NCBI GenBank assembly: GCA_938003855.1
Contig: CALKXD010000238.1
Location: 1 to 38,961 of the forward strand
DNA: 38,961 nucleotides
Direction of reading: 5' to 3'
From: an uncultured Granulosicoccaceae bacterium
GTDB lineage: Bacteria > Pseudomonadota > Gammaproteobacteria > Granulosicoccales > Granulosicoccaceae
The notes beneath the pieces were generated by a model. The model saw nothing but the letters and a program-made list of their open reading frames with translations. It had not been told where the DNA came from and searched no databases. A program made the position numbers and the translations under genes. This document shows, in pieces, positions 4,013 through 38,206 of this stretch (position 1 is the first letter of the stretch; each line of letters begins with the position of its first letter).

Positions 4013-4456
4013 CTACTCGGCGTCTCTCAGCGCCATACGGACACCGTCATTGACACGCATGGCCAACTCACGGATCACTGCCACAGCCACCTCAGGGCAA
4101 CCTTCGATCAATTGCATAAATACATCTTTGGTGATCTTTAAAACCACCAGCTCAGTCGCTGCCATGACTGTCGCCGTTCTGGGCACATCACAGACAATTG
4201 CTGTTTCACCGACTATCTCTCCTGCACCGTGCGTGGTCACCAGCAAGGGGCCGCTTTTGGTATTCACATAGATATCTACATCGCCCTCCATGATGACAAA
4301 GGCCTCTTCACCCTTCTCCCCCTCAATGCACAAATTATCTCCGGGCTGATAAACAACCCACTCGCTGGTGAACGACAACAGCTTTAAGCGGGAATCATCA
4401 AGGCTGGAAAACAACGGTATATTTCTCAGCGCTTCGACTTCTTCGATCATGCTCAT
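4013..4456 (-). CDS. Cyclic-nucleotide-binding domain protein, stand-alone
   Basis: A protein of 147 aa that is essentially a single cNMP-binding (Crp-like) beta-barrel domain with no DNA-binding domain. The phosphate-binding cassette is canonical: GETAIVCDVPRTATV, near residues 82-96, keeps the Glu that contacts ribose and the Arg that contacts the cyclic phosphate, so real cAMP or cGMP binding is plausible. The start at 4456 is preferred over an upstream one because GGAGG lies about 10 bases before it. It follows ABC-1 (4529-7123) after 72 bases on the same strand, so the two are probably one operon. The paralogous ABC-2 (28590-31622) carries an equivalent domain fused to its C-terminus, which implies that this protein works with ABC-1. 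Confidence 0.88.
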   Translation of the reverse strand: MSMIEEVEALRNIPLFSSLDDSRLKLLSFTSEWVVYQPGDNLCIEGEKGEEAFVIMEGDVDIYVNTKSGPLLVTTHGAGEIVGETAIVCDVPRTATVMAATELVVLKITKDVFMQLIEGCPEVAVAVIRELAMRVNDGVRMALRDAE

Positions 4457-4528
4457 GACAGCTGTACCTCCCGCCCTGACTGATACATCCCGACTAACCG
4501 GTAACACCGTTGCTGCCTGCATCCAGAT

Positions 4529-7123
4529 TTAATCACTGCCATTACTCCGCTTACTTATTTTTCCTTTCTCGAGCGTTAGCACCTGCTCGAAACCTGCCGC
4601 CGGATGATCCTGAGCCAGCACCCAGATCAACCCCCGATTGCGGCGTAATTGCTGCACGCCGGCGATTATTTTTAGCTCAGTATCAGTATCCAGCACACTG
4701 ATCGCGTCGTTGACAATCAACAGATCAGTCTCCTTCAGCAGCGCGCGCGCCAGGGCGATTTTCTGCCGCTGATCCACCGGAATAGCGGCACCACCGATAC
4801 CGACATCATAACTGAGGCCCAGCCGCATGATGTCGCGATAGATTCCCAGCTGATCGATCACCGAGCGGATCAACTCGCCTATCCGGATTTCCGCTCTGGC
4901 CTGCCCGTAGGCCAGCTTGCCAAACAATATATTATCCTGCACTGACGACTCCCCACTGTACACATCTGAATTGAACAGCGTGATCAACGCCGTGAGCTCG
5001 GCAGGCATGCCCTCAGCAAGTCGATGACGTGCCTCAACCAAACGCTGCTGTATTGCATCATCGACAATACCCAGACGATGCTGAGCCGGCACCAGCATCA
5101 GCGCCACCGATAGCAGCTGCTGACGTTCTTCGTCGCTAATCGACTCGATACCATCGACCTCTATGCGACCAAGCATCAGCTTATAGTGGGGAAGATCATC
5201 AGAGCTGATAAACGAAAAGCGATTGAAAAATTCGTGACCCGGTGGCAGATCAGAGAAAATATCAACCATCGTTTCAGCGGCATTTCTACCCGCCAGAATC
5301 AACTCATCCAGCAAGCCGTCTTTCGCAAGCGTTGACTGCACATAGGGGTGATTGATTAAATCCTGCACAGTCGTTGCGCTATCGCGCGGCACACCGAACA
5401 ACAGGTTTTCAGCAACCGGGGCATTGGTGTTGTAGCGACTGTAATCGTATAGCTCGACCAGATGGTTTAAGTCGCCACGCGACAACTCATCGCTTAGCCT
5501 GTGTCTGGCTTGCAGCAGCCGATCTTCCAGCGCTGCATTCGGGTTCAGCGCCAGCTTGCTGCGCAATCCCAGTTCATAGATATCCCGGTCCAGATCCACC
5601 ACTGACAACAGCTCGATCGCTTTAGCTTCCAATTCGCCACTGTCCTCGACACCGGCAGTCTTATAGTCGATCCAGCACGCATCAACATCAAAAGCACTAT
5701 TGCCGGTTCGCCGTGACTCGAGCCTGACCCGCTCGGCGTTGGCATCGTCAATCGCTGTATCAGCCGGTCGAGGGTGATTTTTCAGGCCATAAAAAATATT
5801 ATCCAAAACACTGCCGGTGAAAAGATAAGCCCCCGGACCGGCATAACTGATATACCGGCTGACCTGTGCCACCGACAAACCGGCGACGTTTACACCATTG
5901 AGCTTAAGCTGGCCACGGGTTGGATCTATGAGCCGGGCCATCAGCCGCGCCAGGTCTTCTTTTCCACCACCGGTGGGTCCGACAATGGCCACATGCCGCG
6001 TCACCGGAATCTCAAAGCTGATGCCATCCACATGTTTGACACCATTGTCTTCCGCATAGCTAAGCCCGTTGGATGACAGCGCTCCCTGCAACGTCTGCCG
6101 ACCCGACGCATCACTGTCGAGCAACGGCGCATCAAGGATGCCGTTAGGATGAAACTGACTGATTATCTGTGCATACTTCACCCGTATATCTTCTTTCATC
6201 TGATAGTACTTCAGAAGCTCTTTCCAGGGTCCTGCCAGATCCTTATACGCGGCCAGCACGGCGATCAGTGCACCCAGCGACAATTGCCCCTTTATTACAA
6301 AATAACCGCCAACCAGATAGAAAAAAAACGGTGTGATTTGATTCAGGAAATTATTCAGAAATTTTATAAAGTACTTGCGTTTATAGATTTCTTTTCGAAT
6401 TTCAAAAAGAGACCCGAGCCTGCCGGTAATTTCTGCGCGCTCATATTTTGATGTATCGAGTGACCGGATCTCAGTGTTACCGGCAAAGGCCTCACCGATT
6501 CTAGAAGCAAGCGAACGAACCGTCAGAACCCGTTTGCGTGATAGCTCATTAACTTTCTTCTGCAACTTGGGGATGACATACATCTGCAACGGATACATCG
6601 CCGTTGCAGCAATCCCCAGAAAAACATCCTGATTAAATATAAAGGCCAGGTAAGTTACCAGCAATCCCCCCTGAAACGCCGGCAACGCAAAGGCATCGCT
6701 GATGAAACCGCCCAGTGGTTCAGTCTCGGCGGTGATTATCGGCACAACCTCACTTTGCGATATGCGTTTGAAATGCGGGATCGGAAATCTCAGCACACGG
6801 CTATAGAGGTCATAGCGCAACCGGCGCAACATGCGCTCACTGAGCACGCCGCGATACACATTCAAATGGTATTTAACTCCACCATTTATCATGGTCAGTG
6901 CCAGAAACGCACAGCACAATATCAACAGATAACTGATCTGTGTGACATCAAAGCCCAGAATCGAAGCCGGAATTCCGTCGCCACCGATTGCCTGATTAAT
7001 GATTAACTTCGGTATCTCGAGGGAATAATAAACCAGAGGCATGGACAGCACAGTGGCTATCAGTATCAGCACTTGCTCTTTGCGGCTATAGCGCAAAATG
7101 TATTTGAAAATAGACGTTTCCAT
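4529..7123 (-). CDS. ABC exporter-like protein (ABC-1) with expanded, degenerate nucleotide-binding domain
   Basis: An inner-membrane protein of 864 aa. Residues 1 to about 315 form an ABC exporter transmembrane domain with about six helices. The nucleotide-binding domain follows but is abnormal. The Walker A-like GPTGGGKED (about 382-390) keeps the Lys. The usual Q-loop Gln is Gly in AGPGAYLF. The LSGGQ signature is replaced by AAIPVDQRQK. Walker B reads LLIVNDAISVLD, so its Asp is Asn and the catalytic Glu is Asp. The H-loop His is Gln. About 300 extra residues lie between the Q-loop region and the signature helix, where the box SVLDNIFYG (about 438) recurs as PVAENLLFG (about 569) and SVQDNILFG (about 727). 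ATG 7123 is chosen over GTG 7126 because ABC-2 begins at the same residue (METN versus METS). The substrate is unknown; the glycan genes suggest a glycoconjugate. Confidence 0.85.
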   Translation of the reverse strand: METSIFKYILRYSRKEQVLILIATVLSMPLVYYSLEIPKLIINQAIGGDGIPASILGFDVTQISYLLILCCAFLALTMINGGVKYHLNVYRGVLSERMLRRLRYDLYSRVLRFPIPHFKRISQSEVVPIITAETEPLGGFISDAFALPAFQGGLLVTYLAFIFNQDVFLGIAATAMYPLQMYVIPKLQKKVNELSRKRVLTVRSLASRIGEAFAGNTEIRSLDTSKYERAEITGRLGSLFEIRKEIYKRKYFIKFLNNFLNQITPFFFYLVGGYFVIKGQLSLGALIAVLAAYKDLAGPWKELLKYYQMKEDIRVKYAQIISQFHPNGILDAPLLDSDASGRQTLQGALSSNGLSYAEDNGVKHVDGISFEIPVTRHVAIVGPTGGGKEDLARLMARLIDPTRGQLKLNGVNVAGLSVAQVSRYISYAGPGAYLFTGSVLDNIFYGLKNHPRPADTAIDDANAERVRLESRRTGNSAFDVDACWIDYKTAGVEDSGELEAKAIELLSVVDLDRDIYELGLRSKLALNPNAALEDRLLQARHRLSDELSRGDLNHLVELYDYSRYNTNAPVAENLLFGVPRDSATTVQDLINHPYVQSTLAKDGLLDELILAGRNAAETMVDIFSDLPPGHEFFNRFSFISSDDLPHYKLMLGRIEVDGIESISDEERQQLLSVALMLVPAQHRLGIVDDAIQQRLVEARHRLAEGMPAELTALITLFNSDVYSGESSVQDNILFGKLAYGQARAEIRIGELIRSVIDQLGIYRDIMRLGLSYDVGIGGAAIPVDQRQKIALARALLKETDLLIVNDAISVLDTDTELKIIAGVQQLRRNRGLIWVLAQDHPAAGFEQVLTLEKGKISKRSNGSD

Positions 7124-7499
7124 CACGTGCTCATTGACTCCGAATATCCTAACCCTTAAGACAAACTGAACAACAGGAACCGCATCTTCACCATTGACGG
7201 GACTCGATTAATGGCCCGTTCAGAGTTCGATGGATGTGCCGACCCCGGCAACCGGACAATACCGCCAGCCGGCAGGCACGCTCCCGCAGAACACCGCTTT
7301 CAGTATGCTATACCGCCCTGCCATCTGCACGCCAAACTTTGCCATCACCACACCCGACCCTCTCAATCCGGTAAAAATACCGTTATCCGACACCGCTCTG
7401 CTCTGTTGCCTTTCGGTACAAGCCGCAACCGCGGCCTGCAGTTGCCCGGTTAATCACCAGGCCATACACTTGTACGTCCCCCCGCAAGAGTCCGGACGT
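7124..7499. other. Divergent intergenic region
   Basis: This 376-base gap separates ABC-1 (-) from the DUF1796-like gene (+). An open frame runs through it on the plus strand from 7230 into the downstream gene, but its translation looks non-conserved and low in protein character, so I treat it as untranslated. It holds a small CGGTA-AAAA-TACCG hairpin (7369-7382). Promoters in both directions are expected, but none matches consensus well enough to mark. Confidence 0.4.
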
Positions 7500-11600: not shown

Positions 11601-12737
11601 TCATCTTTGTTCCGCTAGTCTGGTGGCAAAGCGAACAGTTTCAAGCGCCCCGTTAAACTGCTGCCTGTCAACGGCAAAGCGCCCTGCCGAGCAAACCTGC
11701 GCGATAGCCTGCAATAGTTTTTCAGGGTTGAGATCTTTGGCTTTGACCAGTGAAAACGCCGCGCGTTCGGCCAGACTTGCAGCACGCAGCGTCTGTTCCT
11801 GCTCGCCCCCGGCATCAAAAGGTATCAACACACCCGGTGTGCCAGTGAGCAGTAAATCAATCGCGGTATTGTAACCGCACATACTCACCGAGCAGGCCGC
11901 CCCCTGCAGCAGCTGACGAAAGTCGGTGCGGTTTGGCTCGATGACCACCGATGTGCCGGCAGCCAATGCCTGCAAGTGTGCCACCTCCGCTTGTGGATCG
12001 CTGCCGCCAATCAGCAGCCGCCAACGAGAGTCCGGCAACAGACGCGCCGCCTCGATGGCAGCTTCATAGATAAACCGCCCGACCGATCCGCCACCGGCGC
12101 TGACGATCACTTCAAAGCTGTGTGATGTTGCTTGCGCCAGGTCGACTGACTGAGCAACATAACCGGTATAAAAAAGCTTAGCCTGAAGGCGTTCGGAGAC
12201 CGGCCAGCTGACCTCCAGCGCTGTGGTAGCGCGATCAGAGTGCACCACCACGCCATCGTAATATTGACACACCAATGCTTCGGTACGCTGCGCTTTTTCG
12301 GTACTCGACGGCGCTGCTAGAATATCGCGCACCGACGACAACACCACCGGTGCTGCTGCCATTGCCTGCGTCAATTCAAGCAGAGCAGTAAACTCGCGGC
12401 GCAGCACCCGACGGCCAAACGGAAACAACTCGGTGATCACGATATCGGGTTGCAGCGAGTCCGCCAACTCGCACAATTGATTTAATCTGGACGCTAAATA
12501 AGCCTCGTCAGCGACGCTTCGATCTGCAGTAAGCAGGCGCGTAAAGTTAGTGCCATCAGAGCACAGCGGTGGCAATTGCACTACCCGGACACCATCGGTT
12601 TCAAACGGTCTGACCGGCAGACCGCCACTGACTAAAGTGACTCTGTGACCCGAGGCGACAAACGCCTGCGACAAGTTGATCGACCGGCGCAAGTGCCCGG
12701 TACCGAGTAAATGGGTTACTACAACCAGAATATTCAT
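11601..12737 (-). CDS. COG4671-like (MurG-type, GT-B) glycosyltransferase
   Basis: A glycosyltransferase of 378 aa with the two-domain GT-B fold. The N-terminal GTGHLRRSINLSQAF (about 12-26) is the acceptor-side glycine loop of MurG-like enzymes. The C-terminal half has VSAGGGSVGR and CGYNTAIDLLLTGTPGVLIP, the expected nucleotide-sugar site. It is paralogous to the enzyme at 15774-17009 (GLGHLRRSRTMAAAL). The ATG at 12737 has AGGTG shortly upstream. No membrane segment is evident, so it would act at the cytoplasmic face. A gap of 110 bases separates it from the phosphatase gene upstream in the operon. The sugar donor is unknown. Confidence 0.82.
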   Translation of the reverse strand: MNILVVVTHLLGTGHLRRSINLSQAFVASGHRVTLVSGGLPVRPFETDGVRVVQLPPLCSDGTNFTRLLTADRSVADEAYLASRLNQLCELADSLQPDIVITELFPFGRRVLRREFTALLELTQAMAAAPVVLSSVRDILAAPSSTEKAQRTEALVCQYYDGVVVHSDRATTALEVSWPVSERLQAKLFYTGYVAQSVDLAQATSHSFEVIVSAGGGSVGRFIYEAAIEAARLLPDSRWRLLIGGSDPQAEVAHLQALAAGTSVVIEPNRTDFRQLLQGAACSVSMCGYNTAIDLLLTGTPGVLIPFDAGGEQEQTLRAASLAERAAFSLVKAKDLNPEKLLQAIAQVCSAGRFAVDRQQFNGALETVRFATRLAEQR

Positions 12738-12847: not shown

Positions 12848-13444
12848 TCAGAGCGCGGCGGACGACTCCTGACGGATCAATCTGACGCGCAATGGATCGG
12901 CCGGCTTCAAGCGCTCGGTCAACTCCAGACAATACAATGAATTTCGTTTGATACTAAATGGCGGAACACCTTTGTAAGGCCAGTCATACGCCACCGCCAG
13001 TAACGCTCGCATCACACCGATGTGACAGACCGCCACAGTATCTTCACGCAGGTCGGCTAACCAGGGCGCCAATCTCGACCACACCTGTGCCGGACTCTCG
13101 CCACTCGGCGGCTGATAGTCCCACCCCCAGTCAGGCAGGTGGCGAAAGCCAGAGTCGGGATCAGCGCCCAGGTCAACACTGCGCTGCCCCTCCCAGTCAC
13201 CGTAGTCCATCTCTATCAGGGCTGGTTCTATAACCGGCTGACGGCCGCTGATCAGCGCTGCGGTGTGCATCGCTCTATGCAACGGACTGCTGAGCAATGC
13301 AGCATGCTGCCAGGGGTCCGGCAGGCACAATCCTGCCAGTTCAGACGCGGCGTCAGCTTCCAGCGGAATATCCCGCCGTCCCTGAATCCTACCGTCGCGA
13401 TTCCACGCGGTACGACCATGCCTGATAATCGCCAGTCGAATCAT
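12848..13444 (-). CDS. Histidine phosphatase family protein
   Basis: A protein of 198 aa of the phosphoglycerate-mutase-like superfamily. The catalytic RHG motif is in AIIRHGRTAWNRDGRIQG (about 6-23); the second catalytic His is in VCHIGVMRALL (about 153-163) and the acid residue is in MDYGDWEGQ. Known relatives dephosphorylate sugar phosphates, the alpha-ribazole intermediate of cobalamin synthesis, or nucleotides. Its start overlaps the stop of the GT4 gene by 4 bases (ATGA), so it is translationally coupled to the glycan operon. Dephosphorylation of a sugar-phosphate intermediate is the most sensible guess here, as cobalamin genes are absent from the window. Confidence 0.85.
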   Translation of the reverse strand: MIRLAIIRHGRTAWNRDGRIQGRRDIPLEADAASELAGLCLPDPWQHAALLSSPLHRAMHTAALISGRQPVIEPALIEMDYGDWEGQRSVDLGADPDSGFRHLPDWGWDYQPPSGESPAQVWSRLAPWLADLREDTVAVCHIGVMRALLAVAYDWPYKGVPPFSIKRNSLYCLELTERLKPADPLRVRLIRQESSAAL

Positions 13445-14523
13445 CGCTCTAGAACCAACGCCAATTGCCGCGAGAGCGTCGCTGCTGCCGCACCCAGCAG
13501 ATGTCGACGGCGCACCAGTTCGTGCCCGGTGCGTTGCATCAATCGATACTGTTGCGGGTCAGCCAGGGTAGCGTCTATCGCACGCGCCATAGCGTGCGGG
13601 CTATAGTCAGCCACCAGCGAGTGCGGCGACCCGATAACTTCACGCACTCCCGCTCGATCCTGCGCGACCACCGGCACACCGGCGGCCTGCGCTTCCAGAT
13701 AAACCATCCCGAATGCTTCGTTGACCCCGGGCCATACAAACACCGACGCATCCCGGTACGCCGCCGCCACAGCCCCCTGATCCAGTTGACCGGCAAATGT
13801 AACGCGCGATCCAAACGATTCAAACAGCGCTTTAACCTCAAGGTGAGCAGGCCCGTCACCAACGATACACAATTGCCAATCAGTGGTTGTCAGATACGCC
13901 AGTGCGGCGGCAAGGATTCGATAGGACTCGAGCTTGTCACCATAGCGATGCATGCCGACCGCCAGCAGGCGGTTACTGATTTGCGCTACCGGCGGCAGCT
14001 CAGGTAAGTCGGTGCGCTCTAGAAATGGCGCAAGATGCACCAGCGTTTGATCGGCGGGTCGGTGTTGCTCAAGCGCTATGCGGTCTTTGTCAGTCAGGTA
14101 AAACACTACGTCGGCCGCCTCCGTCGCGGCATCGGCACTGGCGGCAAAATTTGCCCACGGCCCCTGCAACCGGCGTCTGGCAATACTTGCCTCTATAAGC
14201 ATGTAGGGTATCTTCAAGCGGCGGCTAACCGCAACTCCCACCAGATCCGGCGCTTTGTAGTAATTGTGGTAGGTCACCCAGGCCCGCCAGCGGTCACCGT
14301 CTTTGAGCAAGCGGGCCACCTCGGCTCCGGCACGTGCGCTGATCTGTTGCTGCACTTGCCTATCACCCTGCCCGTCAAAGCAGCGCAGCGTTGACGCCAG
14401 CGTGACCGGCAAGCCCTGTGAGTTCATCGACAGCGCTGCCATCAGGCTTTGCGCTATCTGCCGGTCCCCGGACGGCACCGGGTGATCGGGGGATTTCAAC
14501 GGCGCATAAAAAGCCAGTTGCAT
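13441..14523 (-). CDS. GT4 family glycosyltransferase
   Basis: A retaining GT-B glycosyltransferase of 360 aa. The C-terminal half holds VGDGPAHLEVKALFE and the EX7E motif region FVWPGVNEAFGMVYLEAQA, followed by GVPVVAQDRAGVREVI, which together bind the nucleotide-sugar donor. The N-terminal domain has PSGDRQIAQSLMAAL, the glycine-containing acceptor loop of this clan. ATG 14523 is preferred over the adjacent GTG 14526. The upstream GT4 gene ends at 14527, so the two abut, and the downstream phosphatase overlaps by 4 bases: tight coupling. Donor and acceptor are unknown. Confidence 0.88.
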   Translation of the reverse strand: MQLAFYAPLKSPDHPVPSGDRQIAQSLMAALSMNSQGLPVTLASTLRCFDGQGDRQVQQQISARAGAEVARLLKDGDRWRAWVTYHNYYKAPDLVGVAVSRRLKIPYMLIEASIARRRLQGPWANFAASADAATEAADVVFYLTDKDRIALEQHRPADQTLVHLAPFLERTDLPELPPVAQISNRLLAVGMHRYGDKLESYRILAAALAYLTTTDWQLCIVGDGPAHLEVKALFESFGSRVTFAGQLDQGAVAAAYRDASVFVWPGVNEAFGMVYLEAQAAGVPVVAQDRAGVREVIGSPHSLVADYSPHAMARAIDATLADPQQYRLMQRTGHELVRRRHLLGAAAATLSRQLALVLER

Positions 14524-14526
14524 CAC

Positions 14527-15777
14527 TTAAACGCCGGAGCCACCGCACAACGCACGCAGACGACGGTCCAGCACTTTGATGCCGGCGTCCATACCGAAAT
14601 CATCGACCAGACGCTGATACGCTGCCTCCGCCATCGCCACCCTTTTCGACGGCTGCTGTGCCAGTTCGACCATGGCAGCCGCCAGTGCCTCAGCGCTGTC
14701 GTCGGCCAGCAAGGCATGGACATCGTGCTGCAAGAATTCCGGTATCGCCGACACTGACGTGGCGATGATCGGCAACTTTTGCGATGCCGCTTCCATCAAT
14801 ACATTCGGCAGACCATCGCGATCACCGTCTGCGGCAATCCGGCTCGGCAGAATAAACACATCGGCGTCACGCATCGCCTGAACAACATCAGGCTGCTCAC
14901 GCTCGCCCAGCCAGTCGATGCGGTCAGCCACCTGCGACGCTATTGCTTGCTGCTGCAACGCGTCCTTCAGCGCCCCCCCGCCAATGTGAGTCAGCTGCCA
15001 GGCTACGTTTTCGGGTAACAGCGACAGTGCGGCGATCAGGCGGTCATAGCCTTTTTTCTCGACCAGTCTGCCGACCGACAACAGCTTAAGTACCGCACTG
15101 GCGTTGCGCGGCTGCCGATCAGGGGGTGCCGGAAAACGCGACAGATCAAGACCGTGATAGACCAGATCGATGCGATCATCACTGCGGCACAGCGAGCGCA
15201 AATGACGGGCACCAATGGCCGTACAGGTGACACCGAAGGAGGCACCATGACGGTCGGCGTCAAGCTTCTCGTGCAGCTCCCAGTCGGGTGCGGTCCAGAT
15301 ATCCTTGGCATGCGCTGAGTAGCTCCACGGGATGCCACGCATAATGGCCGCATAGCGAGCCACCGACGCCGGCGTATGTAGAAAGTGCGCATAAACCGCG
15401 TTGACCGACTGTGGCAGTTCGGCGGCCATGACACAGGCCTGCCCAAAGCGCCGTACACGGTTACGGGTCAGGTCACGGCGCAGATCGCTTTTAAAGATTT
15501 GCCATGCCGCCGCATAACCTGACAAACGGCGGCAGGCGCGCCAGCCGCGCAACACCCGGGCGACCTCCTGATGCAGGTACTCGGGCAGATAGTGAATGGC
15601 AGCGGTGACCTGGTCATGTAAGGGGTGGCGTTTTTGATTGGCCGGGTGCCGCAGAGACCAGATTTGAAAACAGTGTCCCCGCCGCTCCAGTGCGGCGAGT
15701 TCCTGTGCGACAAAGGTTTCTGACAACCGTGGCCAGCACTTGACGACTATCGCCAGCGGAGGTGCCTGCGAGTTCAT
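14527..15777 (-). CDS. GT4 family glycosyltransferase
   Basis: A GT-B glycosyltransferase of 416 aa. The N-terminus reads VVKCWPRLSETFVAQELAAL, a signature of exopolysaccharide GT4 enzymes of the WcaL/AmsK type. The C-terminal half has LSVGRLVEKKGYDRLIAAL, LPSRIAADGDRDGLPNVLME and LPIIATSVSAIPEF, the donor-binding core. The start at 15777 makes an ATGA overlap with the stop of the upstream COG4671-like gene. An in-frame extension to 15834 would overlap that gene by 60 bases and adds unconserved residues, so I reject it. It is the second gene of the operon that starts at 17009. Confidence 0.9.
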   Translation of the reverse strand: MNSQAPPLAIVVKCWPRLSETFVAQELAALERRGHCFQIWSLRHPANQKRHPLHDQVTAAIHYLPEYLHQEVARVLRGWRACRRLSGYAAAWQIFKSDLRRDLTRNRVRRFGQACVMAAELPQSVNAVYAHFLHTPASVARYAAIMRGIPWSYSAHAKDIWTAPDWELHEKLDADRHGASFGVTCTAIGARHLRSLCRSDDRIDLVYHGLDLSRFPAPPDRQPRNASAVLKLLSVGRLVEKKGYDRLIAALSLLPENVAWQLTHIGGGALKDALQQQAIASQVADRIDWLGEREQPDVVQAMRDADVFILPSRIAADGDRDGLPNVLMEAASQKLPIIATSVSAIPEFLQHDVHALLADDSAEALAAAMVELAQQPSKRVAMAEAAYQRLVDDFGMDAGIKVLDRRLRALCGGSGV

Positions 15778-17009
15778 GCCTGCTCGACTTCCAGCTCCTG
15801 CGCCAGCAGCGCTTTGGTTCGCCCGACAATGCACTCTAGACCGCCAAGCAGCCCCGCGTAGCGTCCAGCCGACGGCGGTGGTTGCGATGGCAGACTGCGG
15901 ATTGCTTCGATCATGGCATCGACCGAACTGCCGTCGAGCTTGTCATCGAACATCCGCACCAGGCCTAACTCCTGTGCACGCGACGCTCTGATGTATTGCT
16001 CGAGTCGCGGCACCGTGCGCGGTACGATTACCGCCGGCACATCGCAGGAGAGAATTTCACAAAAAGTGTTGTAGCCGCCCATCGCAACGACGCCCTGAGC
16101 CCCGGCCATCAGGCTCTCCATACGTGAATCAAAACCCACATTCATGACGCGCCCGTTGAGGTTCGCCACGCGACGTTCAAAATCGGCGCGGGCATCACCG
16201 GTCAGGAACGGACCGTAGACCAGTAATGCGGCCGGTGTGAGGGTGGGGTCTTTTTCGTAGGCAAGCAACACTTGATCGACCATCGCCGCGCCGTCGCCGC
16301 CTCCGCCCGGCGTCACTAAAATATACGGCGCTTCAGGCATTTCGTCACGCGTCACCGCCTCACGCCGCAGATAGCCGGTCCAGACCATGCGCCGCTTAAC
16401 GCTCTCTGACAACGGCAAGCCCTCTGTCGGGTCGTAGACGGATTTTAATCCATACACCCAGATTTCATGGTAGTACTTTTCCATTGCCTGCACCGCCCCT
16501 TTACGCTCCCACTCCTCAGCCAGCAGGTCGGGGCCATCGAGCACATCGCGCAGACCTAGAATCAGTTTTGTGTTGCCCTTTTTGTGCAGCCATTCCAGCG
16601 CTGGACGCAACTCGCCGCGAAAACCAGTCGGTTCTTTATCGACAACGATGATGTCTGGCATGAAGAGCTCCACCAGAGACTTAATCAGACCAGCCCGGAT
16701 GACGGTAGTTTCTTCGATGTCAAAACTGAGCTTTTCGGAGACGTAAGAACCGTCTGAGCGCTTGGTGACGCCCGGCAGCCGGACGTAGTCGACACGCTCG
16801 GGAAAGGTAAATCGACCGGCAACCGGTGACCCGGTGATAATCAGTGCCGACATTTGATCGTCGGAGGCGGTTAACGCGGCTGCCATGGTTCGGGAGCGAC
16901 GCAGATGACCCAGACCGAAGGTATCATGACTATAAAAAAGCACCCGCGGTGCACGCGGCTCCCGGCTGGAATTTGCGGCACGACCGGACGGGTTATTCGA
17001 AAAAGCCAT
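15774..17009 (-). CDS. COG4671-like predicted glycosyltransferase, first gene of the glycan operon
   Basis: A GT-B glycosyltransferase of 411 aa of the MurG-related COG4671 type. VLFYSHDTFGLGHLRRSRTM (about 23-42) contains the glycine-rich acceptor loop, and VTPGGGGDG, MNVGFDSRMESLM and VAMGGYNTFCEILS form the donor site. ATG 17009 is preferred over GTG 17021 because AAGG lies about 5 bases upstream. It leads a run of eight minus-strand genes ending at 8372, with 4-bp overlaps early and short gaps later. The 234-base divergent gap to the MscS gene (17010-17243) should hold its promoter, but I see no consensus boxes. It is a paralogue of the gene at 11601-12737. Confidence 0.88.
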   Translation of the reverse strand: MAFSNNPSGRAANSSREPRAPRVLFYSHDTFGLGHLRRSRTMAAALTASDDQMSALIITGSPVAGRFTFPERVDYVRLPGVTKRSDGSYVSEKLSFDIEETTVIRAGLIKSLVELFMPDIIVVDKEPTGFRGELRPALEWLHKKGNTKLILGLRDVLDGPDLLAEEWERKGAVQAMEKYYHEIWVYGLKSVYDPTEGLPLSESVKRRMVWTGYLRREAVTRDEMPEAPYILVTPGGGGDGAAMVDQVLLAYEKDPTLTPAALLVYGPFLTGDARADFERRVANLNGRVMNVGFDSRMESLMAGAQGVVAMGGYNTFCEILSCDVPAVIVPRTVPRLEQYIRASRAQELGLVRMFDDKLDGSSVDAMIEAIRSLPSQPPPSAGRYAGLLGGLECIVGRTKALLAQELEVEQA

Positions 17010-17243
17010 GCTGCCTTGCACTCACAAAAAATGTAGAATGAGATCAGCGGATGTGTAGCCACCAGACCCACTCCGACATAACCTCTCACAGACCAGGCAG
17101 ATACCCGGACGACAATCCCGACGTGCCCTGTCTCAACGATAGTCAAATATGGCTTGTCTCTGCGCATGATATCTGCAACGGGCCGAATAGCCAATCAGTG
17201 CCCCTGTGTACTGCCAGACTTCAGCTTATCGGAGCCCGGGTAA

Positions 17244-28589: not shown

Positions 28590-31500
28590 ATGGAAACAAA
28601 CTTAGTTAAGTACATCTGGATGTACAGCCGCAGGCAACAGGGAGTGGTCATTGCGGCAACCATGCTCTCCTTCCCGATTCTGTACCTGACCCTCGAACTG
28701 CCGAAAATCATCATCAACGATGCCTTGAACGGTATGTCCACACAGAAGACCCTGTTTGGATATCAAATCAGTCCAGTCACCTTTCTGGCCATTCTGTGTC
28801 TGTCTCTGCTGGGTCTGGTGGTACTCAACGGCATCATTAAAATGCGCTTGAATACCTACAAAGGGGTGATCGGGGAACGCTTGATCAGACGCCTGCGCTA
28901 CAACCTGATTCAAAACATACTGCGCTTTCCGCTGCCGTATTTCTCCCGTATTTCCTCCGGTGAACTCATCAGCACCGTCACGGCCGAGACCGAACCACTC
29001 AGTGGCTATATCGGTGAATCCATTGCCATGCCACTGTTTCAGGGTGGCACCATGATCACCATCCTGATCTTTATGTTCATGCAGGACTGGGTACTGGGAC
29101 TGATCTCAATTGCACTGATCCCGGTGCAGGGTTACCTGATTCCAAAACTACAGCAGCAGGTTAACCAGCTAAAAAAAGAGCGCGTGCGGCAGGTGCGAAA
29201 ACTCTCCGAGCAAATCGGAGAATCCGTGGCGGGCTCAACCGAGATACGCCTGCACGGCACCCAGCCCTACACACTGGCTGGTTACTCGCGTCGCCTCAGT
29301 GATCTGTTTCAGGTTCGCATGGAGATCTTCAAAAAGAAGTACTTCATGAAATTTCTCAACAACACCATCGGTCAGATCACACCGTTTATGTTTTATTTAT
29401 TCGGCGGCTATCTGGTGATCAAAGGCAGTCTTACGGTCGGTGCTCTGATCGCCGCCATCGCCGCCTATAAAGAGCTGACCAACCCATGGCGGGAATTACT
29501 CAATTATTATCAACTGCACGAAGACAGCAAAATAAAGTACCAGCAGATTGTCGAGCTGTTTAACCCCGGTCACCTGGTCGAAGTAGACGAAGTCGAAACC
29601 GTCGACGAAGCGGTACCGATGAAAGGCAAGCTGGATTTAAATTCGGTGTCATGGCGCGACGAGACCGGCAACACCATATTATCCGGTATTACACTCAATG
29701 TTGCCGCCGGCGCCACTATCGCCATCACCGGTGAATTTGCCGCCCGGCGGGCACGCCTTGCACACCTGCTGGCAGGCATCGAGAAACCCTACTCCGGCAC
29801 CATACACATGGACGATCAGACCATGGACCGCATCCCCGACTCTATACTGCGTCGACGTGTGGCGATTCAAGGCCCGGACCCGCACATGTTTGTCGGTACT
29901 ATTTCCGAAAACCTGGAGTACGGTCTGCTGCAGCATGAGCCGGACCAGAACGCCGACAACGTCGATCAGGCGGTCCTCAAAGAAGCCTTTGACGCCGGCA
30001 ACCGCGCCCCCCTTGATTACGGCTGGCTGGACTACCGGCAAGCCGGTGAACCCGGCAGAGAGCGGTCACCGCAATGGCTGCAACGGGTCATCAATGCCAT
30101 TGGTGCCGGTCGCGTGGTGGCGGAACGCCGCCTGTATGAAGTATTCGACCCCGCCCAGAAACCACAACTGGCCAGCAGACTGCTGCAGGCCCGTGCAGAG
30201 ATACGGGCCCGCCTGGTGCAACTGCCCGAAGCATCCTATATCGCGCACTTTGATCCGGATGTTTTCAACCCCAACGCCAGTGTTCTGGAGAATATTCTAT
30301 TTGGCGTGGCAACCGACACCCGGCTGCACAACGAAGCCTGCGAAGTACACCCGTACCTGCGCAAAATTATCGACAAACAGCAACTCACCCCGCGTGCCAC
30401 GTTGGTCGGTCTGCAACTCGCACGGCATCTGACCAGCGCCATCGACAACAACACGCTGTCACATCAGGAGCTGGAACATTTCAACTTGTCAGCCGACGGT
30501 ATGGTCGACCGCATCAAGGCCACACTCGACGCGCATAAGTCAGGCACCGAACTCAGCGAAGAAAGCCGCTGCCTGCTGATGTCATTGTTCCTGCGGGTTA
30601 TCCCCGAACGGCACACCCTGGTGCACCTGACCGACCGTGCCATGCGGCGCATTGTGCAGGCACGCCATGATTTCCAGGAGTACCTGCCGGTAGAGCTGGA
30701 CAACACGGTTAACTATTTTCACGAGTCAAGCTACCACCCCAACCTGACCGTCAAAGACAACCTGCTGTTTGGCCGCATGTCGTCCAGCCATCCGGCGGCC
30801 AGCCGGGCTATCGATGTACTGCTCGAACAGGTCATTCGCGAGTTCGACCTCGACGAACCCCTATTGCTGTTGCTCGGTGAATCACAGGTTGGAATCAGCG
30901 GGTCACGCCTGCCGTTAATTGCCAAGCATCGCCTGACACTGGGCCGATCACTACTGAAAAAGCCCAGCGTTTTAATTTTTCACGACGCGCTGTCACTGTT
31001 TGACGCAACAGAAAAACAGGCACTGCGACAATCGGTACGCGAGCTTCTGCCGCAGAGCACATTGATCTGGATCTCCAACGACGTCGAGAACCCCGACGAC
31101 TTCGAACAAGTCTACAACTTCACCGAAGCCGGACCGCTGGTGCCACAGGACAGCAGCCCCTTAACCATAGAGTCCCGACATAACAAAGACAGCACCACGC
31201 TGACCACCGACCCGATGGATCTGATCTCCAACTCGATACTGTTCAGTGAGCTTTCCACCGCCAACCAGCAACACATTGCCGATCACAGCAGGCTGGTAGC
31301 ACTTGACGCCGACACTTGCATCTACGAAATGGGAGACAACGCCGATTCAGCCTGGCTGATGGTGCAAGGCGAGGTTCAGACCACACAACCGCAGGTGCAC
31401 GGTTCGTCTGTGATAGGTACCTTTCAGCGACCAGAGGTGTTTGGCGCGCTCGACGTTATGGCAGACTCACCGAGAATGATGACAGCGACCACCACGAAAG

Positions 31501-31622
31501 ACACCGTGGTGCTGCGTATCGCCGCGTCAGCTATAGAATCGGTAGCACTGAGTGATGCTCAGATATCTCGAACGCTGTTGCGATCTTTGTCGAAGCAATG
31601 GCTGCCTCGCAATGCCAGGTAG
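28590..31622 (+). CDS. ABC exporter-like protein (ABC-2) with expanded degenerate NBD and fused cNMP domain
   Basis: An inner-membrane protein of 1010 aa, a full-length paralogue of ABC-1. Residues 1-315 form the exporter transmembrane domain. The NBD is even more eroded than in ABC-1: the Walker A position reads GEFAARRAR (about 381-389) with no Lys; the Q-loop Gln is Pro (GPDPHMF); there is no LSGGQ (SGSRLPLIAKHR); Walker B is VLIFHDALSLFD (about 794-805); the H-loop His is missing. The same roughly 300-residue expansion holds three boxes: TISENLEYG (437), SVLENILFG (564) and TVKDNLLFG (720). Residues about 876-1000 are a cNMP domain whose cassette FGALDVMADSPRM has lost the ribose-binding Glu but keeps Arg, so ligand binding is doubtful. 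It faces acnB convergently. Confidence 0.85.
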   Translation: METNLVKYIWMYSRRQQGVVIAATMLSFPILYLTLELPKIIINDALNGMSTQKTLFGYQISPVTFLAILCLSLLGLVVLNGIIKMRLNTYKGVIGERLIRRLRYNLIQNILRFPLPYFSRISSGELISTVTAETEPLSGYIGESIAMPLFQGGTMITILIFMFMQDWVLGLISIALIPVQGYLIPKLQQQVNQLKKERVRQVRKLSEQIGESVAGSTEIRLHGTQPYTLAGYSRRLSDLFQVRMEIFKKKYFMKFLNNTIGQITPFMFYLFGGYLVIKGSLTVGALIAAIAAYKELTNPWRELLNYYQLHEDSKIKYQQIVELFNPGHLVEVDEVETVDEAVPMKGKLDLNSVSWRDETGNTILSGITLNVAAGATIAITGEFAARRARLAHLLAGIEKPYSGTIHMDDQTMDRIPDSILRRRVAIQGPDPHMFVGTISENLEYGLLQHEPDQNADNVDQAVLKEAFDAGNRAPLDYGWLDYRQAGEPGRERSPQWLQRVINAIGAGRVVAERRLYEVFDPAQKPQLASRLLQARAEIRARLVQLPEASYIAHFDPDVFNPNASVLENILFGVATDTRLHNEACEVHPYLRKIIDKQQLTPRATLVGLQLARHLTSAIDNNTLSHQELEHFNLSADGMVDRIKATLDAHKSGTELSEESRCLLMSLFLRVIPERHTLVHLTDRAMRRIVQARHDFQEYLPVELDNTVNYFHESSYHPNLTVKDNLLFGRMSSSHPAASRAIDVLLEQVIREFDLDEPLLLLLGESQVGISGSRLPLIAKHRLTLGRSLLKKPSVLIFHDALSLFDATEKQALRQSVRELLPQSTLIWISNDVENPDDFEQVYNFTEAGPLVPQDSSPLTIESRHNKDSTTLTTDPMDLISNSILFSELSTANQQHIADHSRLVALDADTCIYEMGDNADSAWLMVQGEVQTTQPQVHGSSVIGTFQRPEVFGALDVMADSPRMMTATTTKDTVVLRIAASAIESVALSDAQISRTLLRSLSKQWLPRNAR

Positions 31623-38130: not shown

Positions 38131-38206
<76 letters not shown>

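Follow-up and report, generated by a model that had tools for sequence, protein, structure and literature searches.

A tripled helical module and eroded ATPase motifs in a proteobacterial family of MsbA-like ABC proteins linked to cyclic-nucleotide-binding and glycosyltransferase genes

Results

Two ABC genes on either side of a glycan cluster

We analysed a stretch of 38,961 nucleotides from an uncultured Granulosicoccaceae bacterium (the whole of it is called the window below), in which two ABC genes, ABC-1 and ABC-2, lie on opposite strands (Table 1). The reading frame of ABC-1 opens with GTG, one codon 5' of an ATG at position 7123 that is the likely start. Both proteins contain an ABC-exporter membrane region (PF00664; 70.9 bits for ABC-1 and 98.2 bits for ABC-2, cut-off 28), and the nucleotide-binding domain (NBD) of ABC-1 is recognized by PF00005 with 42 bits against a cut-off of 25, a match that covers positions 2-80 of the 137 in the profile. 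Aligned over 854 columns, ABC-1 and ABC-2 share 36% identity. A glycan cluster occupies the region between them (8372-28390) and includes four glycosyltransferases, a histidine phosphatase, a complete Opp transporter, an FkbH-type HAD protein, a Methyltransf_17 protein, a polysaccharide deacetylase-like protein, an MscS-type channel, an FkbM methyltransferase and a GNAT protein. A tRNA-Asn (gtt) is found at 38131-38206 on the plus strand.

Table 1. Features of the window discussed in the text
Feature	Position	Strand	Remarks
ABC-1 gene, 865 aa	4529..7126	minus	PF00664 membrane region and N-terminal half of PF00005
ABC-1 transmembrane domain (TMD), residues 1-325	6152..7126	minus	
Degenerate Walker A GPTGGGKED, residues 383-391	5954..5980	minus	Lys retained, Glu in place of Ser/Thr
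ABC-1 unit 1, residues 419-549: Q-loop strand, box 1, helix pair, AR helix	5480..5872	minus	
ABC-1 unit 2, residues 550-707: strand, box 2, helix pair, extra helices, AR helix	5006..5479	minus	
ABC-1 unit 3, residues 708-826: box 3, helix pair, signature, Walker B, D-loop helix	4649..5005	minus	
Box 1 SVLDNIFYG, residue 439	5786..5812	minus	
Box 2 PVAENLLFG, residue 570	5393..5419	minus	
Box 3 SVQDNILFG, residue 728	4919..4945	minus	
ABC-1 insert as modelled alone, residues 449-724	4955..5782	minus	mean pLDDT 91.8
Degenerate signature IPVDQRQKIALARALL, residues 782-797 of ABC-1	4736..4783	minus	
Degenerate Walker B region, residues 801-807 of ABC-1	4706..4726	minus	
Cyclic-nucleotide-binding protein directly downstream of ABC-1	4013..4522	minus	PF00027 E 4.5e-19; phosphate-binding cassette VGETAIVCDVPRTATV intact
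Four glycosyltransferases	11601-12737, 13441-14526, 14527-15834, 15774-17021	minus	conserved neighbourhood
Histidine phosphatase	12848-13444	minus	conserved neighbourhood
ABC-2 gene, 1010 aa, three matching boxes, C-terminal cNMP-binding domain fused	28590..31622	plus	
ABC-2 counterpart of the ABC-1 extra segment	29931..30737	plus	
cNMP-binding domain of ABC-2, residues 904-986	31299..31547	plus	PF00027 E 1.6e-11

One module occurs three times in the NBD

ABC exporters have one helical subdomain per NBD, with about 50 residues from box to signature. ABC-1 instead has three boxes, at the residues given by the original prediction, and the same boxes start at residues 436, 563 and 719 of ABC-2 (437, 564 and 720 in that prediction). 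Box 1 and box 3 of ABC-1 are about 290 residues apart, in agreement with the proposed NBD expansion of roughly 300 residues. The distance from box 1 to the signature is ~343 residues, whereas box 3 stands 54-56 residues from it, compared with 48-53 in canonical proteins; unit 3 is the canonical copy of the module.

Using profile-profile alignment (hhalign) of residues 500-640 against 655-790, we found that residues 531-615 match 689-772 over 83 columns (probability 98.8, E 1e-16). To avoid hand-picked segments, all window pairs of the 865-column family profile were scored. The top seven independent 15-residue matches all fall in one threefold register, corresponding to units 419-549, 550-707 and 708-826. 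Specifically, they pair box 2 with box 3, the first AR helix with the second, box 1 with box 2, box 1 with box 3 and, in all three combinations, the helix pair at 506-520, 599-613 and 756-770. In 15-residue windows the best score is 27.4, and the highest value among 200 block shuffles is 17.8. For every window length the top scores lie above all 200 shuffles; the seventh-ranked match, taken alone, does not. Copy 1 is supported mainly by box 1 and one helix pair. An HMM of the insert hits a second place in many genomes, namely unit 3; one such match covers model positions 105-169 at E 1e-7. Amplification of the module is well supported, and the duplication of the helical half of the NBD that had been proposed holds as an internal repeat of the helical module but not in its copy number, which is three.

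The AR helix predicted before boxes 2 and 3 is present as RLLQARHRL at residue 536 and RLVEARHRL at residue 695, and its pairing is among the seven matches listed above. Judged by the sequence scan, it could be a copy of the D-loop helix; judged by the structural match described below, it could be a copy of the signature helix. A signature plus Walker B segment was also thought to occur twice, and the strings behind this idea are indeed there (EERQQLLSVALML at residue 666 and IVDDAI at 687; DQRQKIALARALL at 785 and IVNDAI at 804). The signature half in unit 2 is suggestive: it ranks eighth in the scan, with 11.9 against a 95% null value of 15.3, and so lies within the shuffle null. The full segment in unit 2 (EERQQLL...IVDDAI) reaches an hhalign probability of only 1.8% and the ABC-1 model has no strand at the proposed second Walker B, which is unsupported and was rejected. 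No fourth repeat was found in the longer Thalassospira proteins, whose added length comes from a low-complexity linker that separates box 1 from box 2.

The amplified module defines a widespread family under purifying selection

A scan of 84,980 species genomes gave 323 relatives, 80 of which were kept, nearly all of them from alpha- and gammaproteobacteria. All three boxes occupy the same positions in every full-length relative examined, with a spacing of 155-161 residues between boxes 2 and 3 in all members and of 95 to 205 between boxes 1 and 2. The extra segment is present in about 10% of an even sample of Pseudomonadota genomes (38/397), and about half of these 38 contain a single copy. 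Two more paralogues are encoded elsewhere in the genome of the window, and the alignment of the four proteins runs through the extra segment. The two further paralogues (L003 and L004) are very divergent, have the same architecture and have no adjoining glycan cluster in the stretch examined; a cNMP domain is fused to L003 and absent from L004. One contig filed under an Anaerolineae MAG (L015; Chloroflexota) carries a typical alphaproteobacterial locus, and its placement is probably a binning error. Family genes, those of rhizobia included, carry the annotation of ordinary ABC transporter ATP-binding proteins, and we take SMb20813 of Sinorhizobium meliloti to be a possible member.

In a tree of the family, ABC-1 falls among gammaproteobacterial sequences and ABC-2 among those with a fused cNMP domain. 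Since the two fall in separate groups, the expansion is older than both; the view that it predates the paralogues is borne out by its presence in 78/78 aligned members, including the four paralogues of this genome and both deep clades. Finer claims from the tree are unsafe because of its long branches.

Conservation in the family is highest in the TMD (mean pairwise identity 0.58, compared with 0.38-0.40 in the parts of the NBD), the reverse of what is seen in 30 MsbA proteins (TMD 0.37, NBD 0.59). Selection is purifying, with dN/dS of about 0.03-0.11 where measurable. Relative to the closest relative, dN is 0.25 in the insert and 0.20-0.23 in the NBD core, a nearly equal nonsynonymous rate, and dN/dS of the core is about 0.1 with dS near saturation. 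Because the insert stays close to the core in dN and the core has a low dN/dS, none of the NBD looks free to decay.

The family is linked to cyclic-nucleotide-binding and glycan genes

A cNMP-binding domain is found at 51/77 loci, fused to the ABC protein at 12 and encoded adjacent downstream at 39, where the separate protein nearly always lies within about 100 bases 3' of the ABC gene. The other 26 loci have no fused or immediately downstream partner. Since the domain is seen both fused and separate, we argue for a functional link. The phosphate-binding cassette of the separate partner is intact (consensus VGEIAILCDVPRTATV), and that of the domain fused to ABC-2 reads VFGALDVMADSPRMMTATT, in which the Glu is lost. 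Class III cyclases, whose identity was checked with Pfam, lie within about 8 kb at 16/49 loci with full flanks; about 0.05 per locus would be expected from the 2.9 per Mb in ten family-bearing genomes, so that the observed frequency is ~six times background. Loci with a cyclase include L014, L033, L035, L054, L059, L060, L066, L069, L070, L079 and L085. These cyclases had been taken for a mechanosensitive channel (neighbour cluster 8), an assignment that we discarded after the Pfam search.

Glycosyltransferases are near the ABC gene at 40 of the 49 full-flank loci, with a median of four. A histidine phosphatase, a polysaccharide deacetylase, a methyltransferase and an Opp-type transporter are other recurring neighbours.

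The ATP site is eroded throughout the family

We took a census of five ATPase motifs (Walker A GK[ST], Q-loop Q, SGGQ, Walker B DE and H-loop H) in 78 aligned members. None has the complete set, 36 have none of the five, and SGGQ is intact in 0/78. The two Walker A glycines are kept in 74/78 and 73/78 members, and the Lys position holds K in 44 and R in 29 (Lys or Arg in 73/78); GK is present in more than half. At the Ser/Thr position, 42/78 have Asp or Glu. The Walker B Asp position is Asn in 43/78, the catalytic Glu position is E in 44/78 and D in 18/78, and His remains at the H-loop position in 17/78. GK[ST] and DE are retained together in Thalassospira members and in L087. We considered an acidic-residue swap between Walker A and Walker B and dropped it, as GK[ST] is also seen with Asn in Walker B. 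This census strongly suggests that the family has lost ordinary ATPase function. Parts of the ATP site survive in some members, so that binding of nucleotide and hydrolysis at a slow rate could persist. With PF00664 and an ABC-fold NBD but no complete motif set, the family protein is an exporter of the ABCB-like half-transporter kind by descent and fold; its ATPase status is putative.

The main rival to the explanation proposed in the Discussion is an active, ATP-driven exporter with atypical working sites, in which hydrolysis would rely on the retained Lys or Arg and Glu and the extra copies would only enlarge the NBD surface, for example for docking of the cNMP-binding protein or a glycosyltransferase. 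Such a pump would fit the Gly-Lys/Arg kept in Walker A of most members, the frequent acidic residue at the catalytic Glu position, the fully modelled NBD core and the GK[ST] and DE of the Thalassospira proteins. It sits poorly with a signature that is intact in no member, with the loss of the Walker A Ser/Thr, the Walker B Asp and the H-loop His each in most members, and with an NBD that is less conserved than the TMD, opposite to MsbA; we regard it as a possible but not a likely reading.

We think it quite unlikely that the family protein is instead the degenerate half of a heterodimer of the TM287/288 or TmrAB type, paired with a canonical half-exporter and retaining one hydrolysing site. 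Degenerate half-sites are common in heterodimeric exporters, where they bind ATP and may serve as scaffolds (PMC7756269), and this genome encodes ten further proteins with an ABC-exporter membrane region beside its four family members. However, no canonical half-exporter is found among the recurring neighbour clusters, and about half of the 38 positive genomes hold a single insert-bearing copy. No co-encoded partner with a complete catalytic site accompanies ABC-1 either, as ABC-2 is degenerate too. Since the signature is lost besides the Walker motifs, a mixed dimer would be expected to be impaired at both sites.

The insert weakly resembles the Q-loop-to-signature segment of ABC NBDs

We compared the units with canonical NBDs. 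With hhalign, unit 3 matches them at 99.6% and unit 1, including its canonical Q-loop box, at 95.7%; the insert-only part of copy 1 gives no match to them. When the canonical part is left out, the insert aligns best to the box and helical subdomain of the MsbA NBD, with a score of 29.0 (maximum 21.8 for shuffled and 19.7 for reversed sequences). Because the formal probability of this match is low (14.7%), it is supporting rather than decisive.

The AlphaFold2 model of ABC-1 has a mean pLDDT of 84.6. Its NBD core (model residues 343-865, with the insert looped out) superimposes on the ComA NBD over 227/240 residues at 1.9 A, with Z 29.5. With the isolated insert model, Foldseek returned nothing at E 0.001 or better, a PDB sequence search with the insert alone gave no significant match, and a Pfam search of the ABC-1 insert gave no family. 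When the insert model was realigned to 682 chains, nearly all of the best 14 were ABC NBDs, matched on the Q-loop-to-signature segment. HlyB is the top match (75 residues, 3.0 A), with a Z of 4.7 that is modest, in a range common by the tool's own scale. Thus, the modelled insert appears to resemble the Q-loop-to-signature segment weakly but coherently, and the match counts because independent ABC entries agree on one segment. Structure prediction had been proposed as the way to refute an ABC origin of the insert, and this origin survives the prediction for the monomer. That the insert is an unrelated helical domain with a box likeness due to convergence, as the lack of a confident Foldseek match or a Pfam family might hint, is very improbable and already close to refuted by the 83-column match of copies 2 and 3, the threefold register of the top seven scan matches, the direct match to the MsbA box and helices above all shuffles and the ABC NBDs found as best structural matches.

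Discussion

Few known domains are as conserved as the ABC NBD. In the family described here, the cyclic-nucleotide partner and the loss of ATPase motifs matter at least as much as the repeat with which the analysis began. Degeneration without an evident canonical partner, a tripled helical module and a cNMP-binding partner together make the family unusual.

We propose that ABC-1 and ABC-2 come from a widespread proteobacterial family of MsbA-like ABC exporters, whose NBD would have undergone an ancestral tandem amplification in which the module spanning the Q-loop strand, the box and the helical subdomain was tripled. Copies 1 and 2 would then have diverged into an extra helical domain, with the positions of signature and Walker B retained in copy 3. 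Erosion of the ATP site would have left the NBD fold in place, giving a protein that probably binds nucleotide weakly or as a structural ligand and hydrolyses ATP slowly or not at all. The highly conserved membrane part could act as a gated flippase, conduit or sensor, its state set by the cyclic-nucleotide-binding partner, separate or fused, and not by a fast ATPase cycle, and the protein would serve the envelope-glycan pathway of the adjoining glycosyltransferases. Of this picture, the module repeat, the motif loss, the purifying selection and the association with cNMP-binding, cyclase and glycosyltransferase genes are shown here; we infer the absence of hydrolysis, the regulation by cyclic nucleotides and the glycan substrate. 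At a probability of roughly 55%, we read ABC-1 and ABC-2 as ABC proteins that have taken on a new function, each a gated transporter or conduit for envelope glycans that is controlled by cyclic nucleotides and probably hydrolyses ATP slowly or not at all. A bolder version, in which loss of the ATPase and amplification of the NBD module gave rise to a cyclic-nucleotide-gated flippase or channel for envelope glycans with no hydrolysing site in the dimer, seems to us unlikely. If the cyclic-nucleotide-gated reading were true, the family would be a bacterial counterpart to CFTR and SUR in leaving active transport.

The family offers a natural experiment on what the ABC fold does without its motor. 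It would let one ask about nucleotide-independent gating by an exporter fold, about a cyclic-nucleotide route to a transporter and about the glycan that is made. It also bears on annotation, where its members pass for ordinary ABC ATP-binding proteins. The family is widespread and has no name, and we found nothing specific to it in the open-access literature; its features suggest a transporter re-engineered into a signal-controlled device.

Among known systems, MsbA and other homodimeric type IV (ABCB-type) exporters share with the family a half-transporter layout, PF00664 and the NBD core fold, and MsbA is the best NCBIfam match. In contrast to MsbA, ABC-1 scores 169.2 bits against the TIGR02203 cut-off of 602, and the family has ~290 extra NBD residues, no intact signature and reversed conservation. 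A true MsbA is encoded elsewhere in the same genome (723.8 bits, C195).

TM287/288, TmrAB and TAP likewise have degenerate Walker B, signature and H-loop residues (PMC7756269). In those heterodimers one site is canonical, whereas no complete set is found in the family and many genomes hold a single copy. To our knowledge, no module triplication has been described in them.

In the cyaA-opt-redA-redB locus on plasmid pA of Rhizobium etli, a family member is flanked by redB, a glycosyltransferase and a Crp-like protein; an adenylate cyclase and an Opp transporter lie upstream. The opt or red genes reportedly have a stress or symbiosis phenotype; for the ABC gene, no published function was found in the open-access literature.

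CFTR and SUR put the ABC fold to gating or regulation and have non-hydrolytic sites (PMC7756269). The likeness of the family to CFTR and SUR is one of analogy; its control would come from a cyclic-nucleotide-binding partner.
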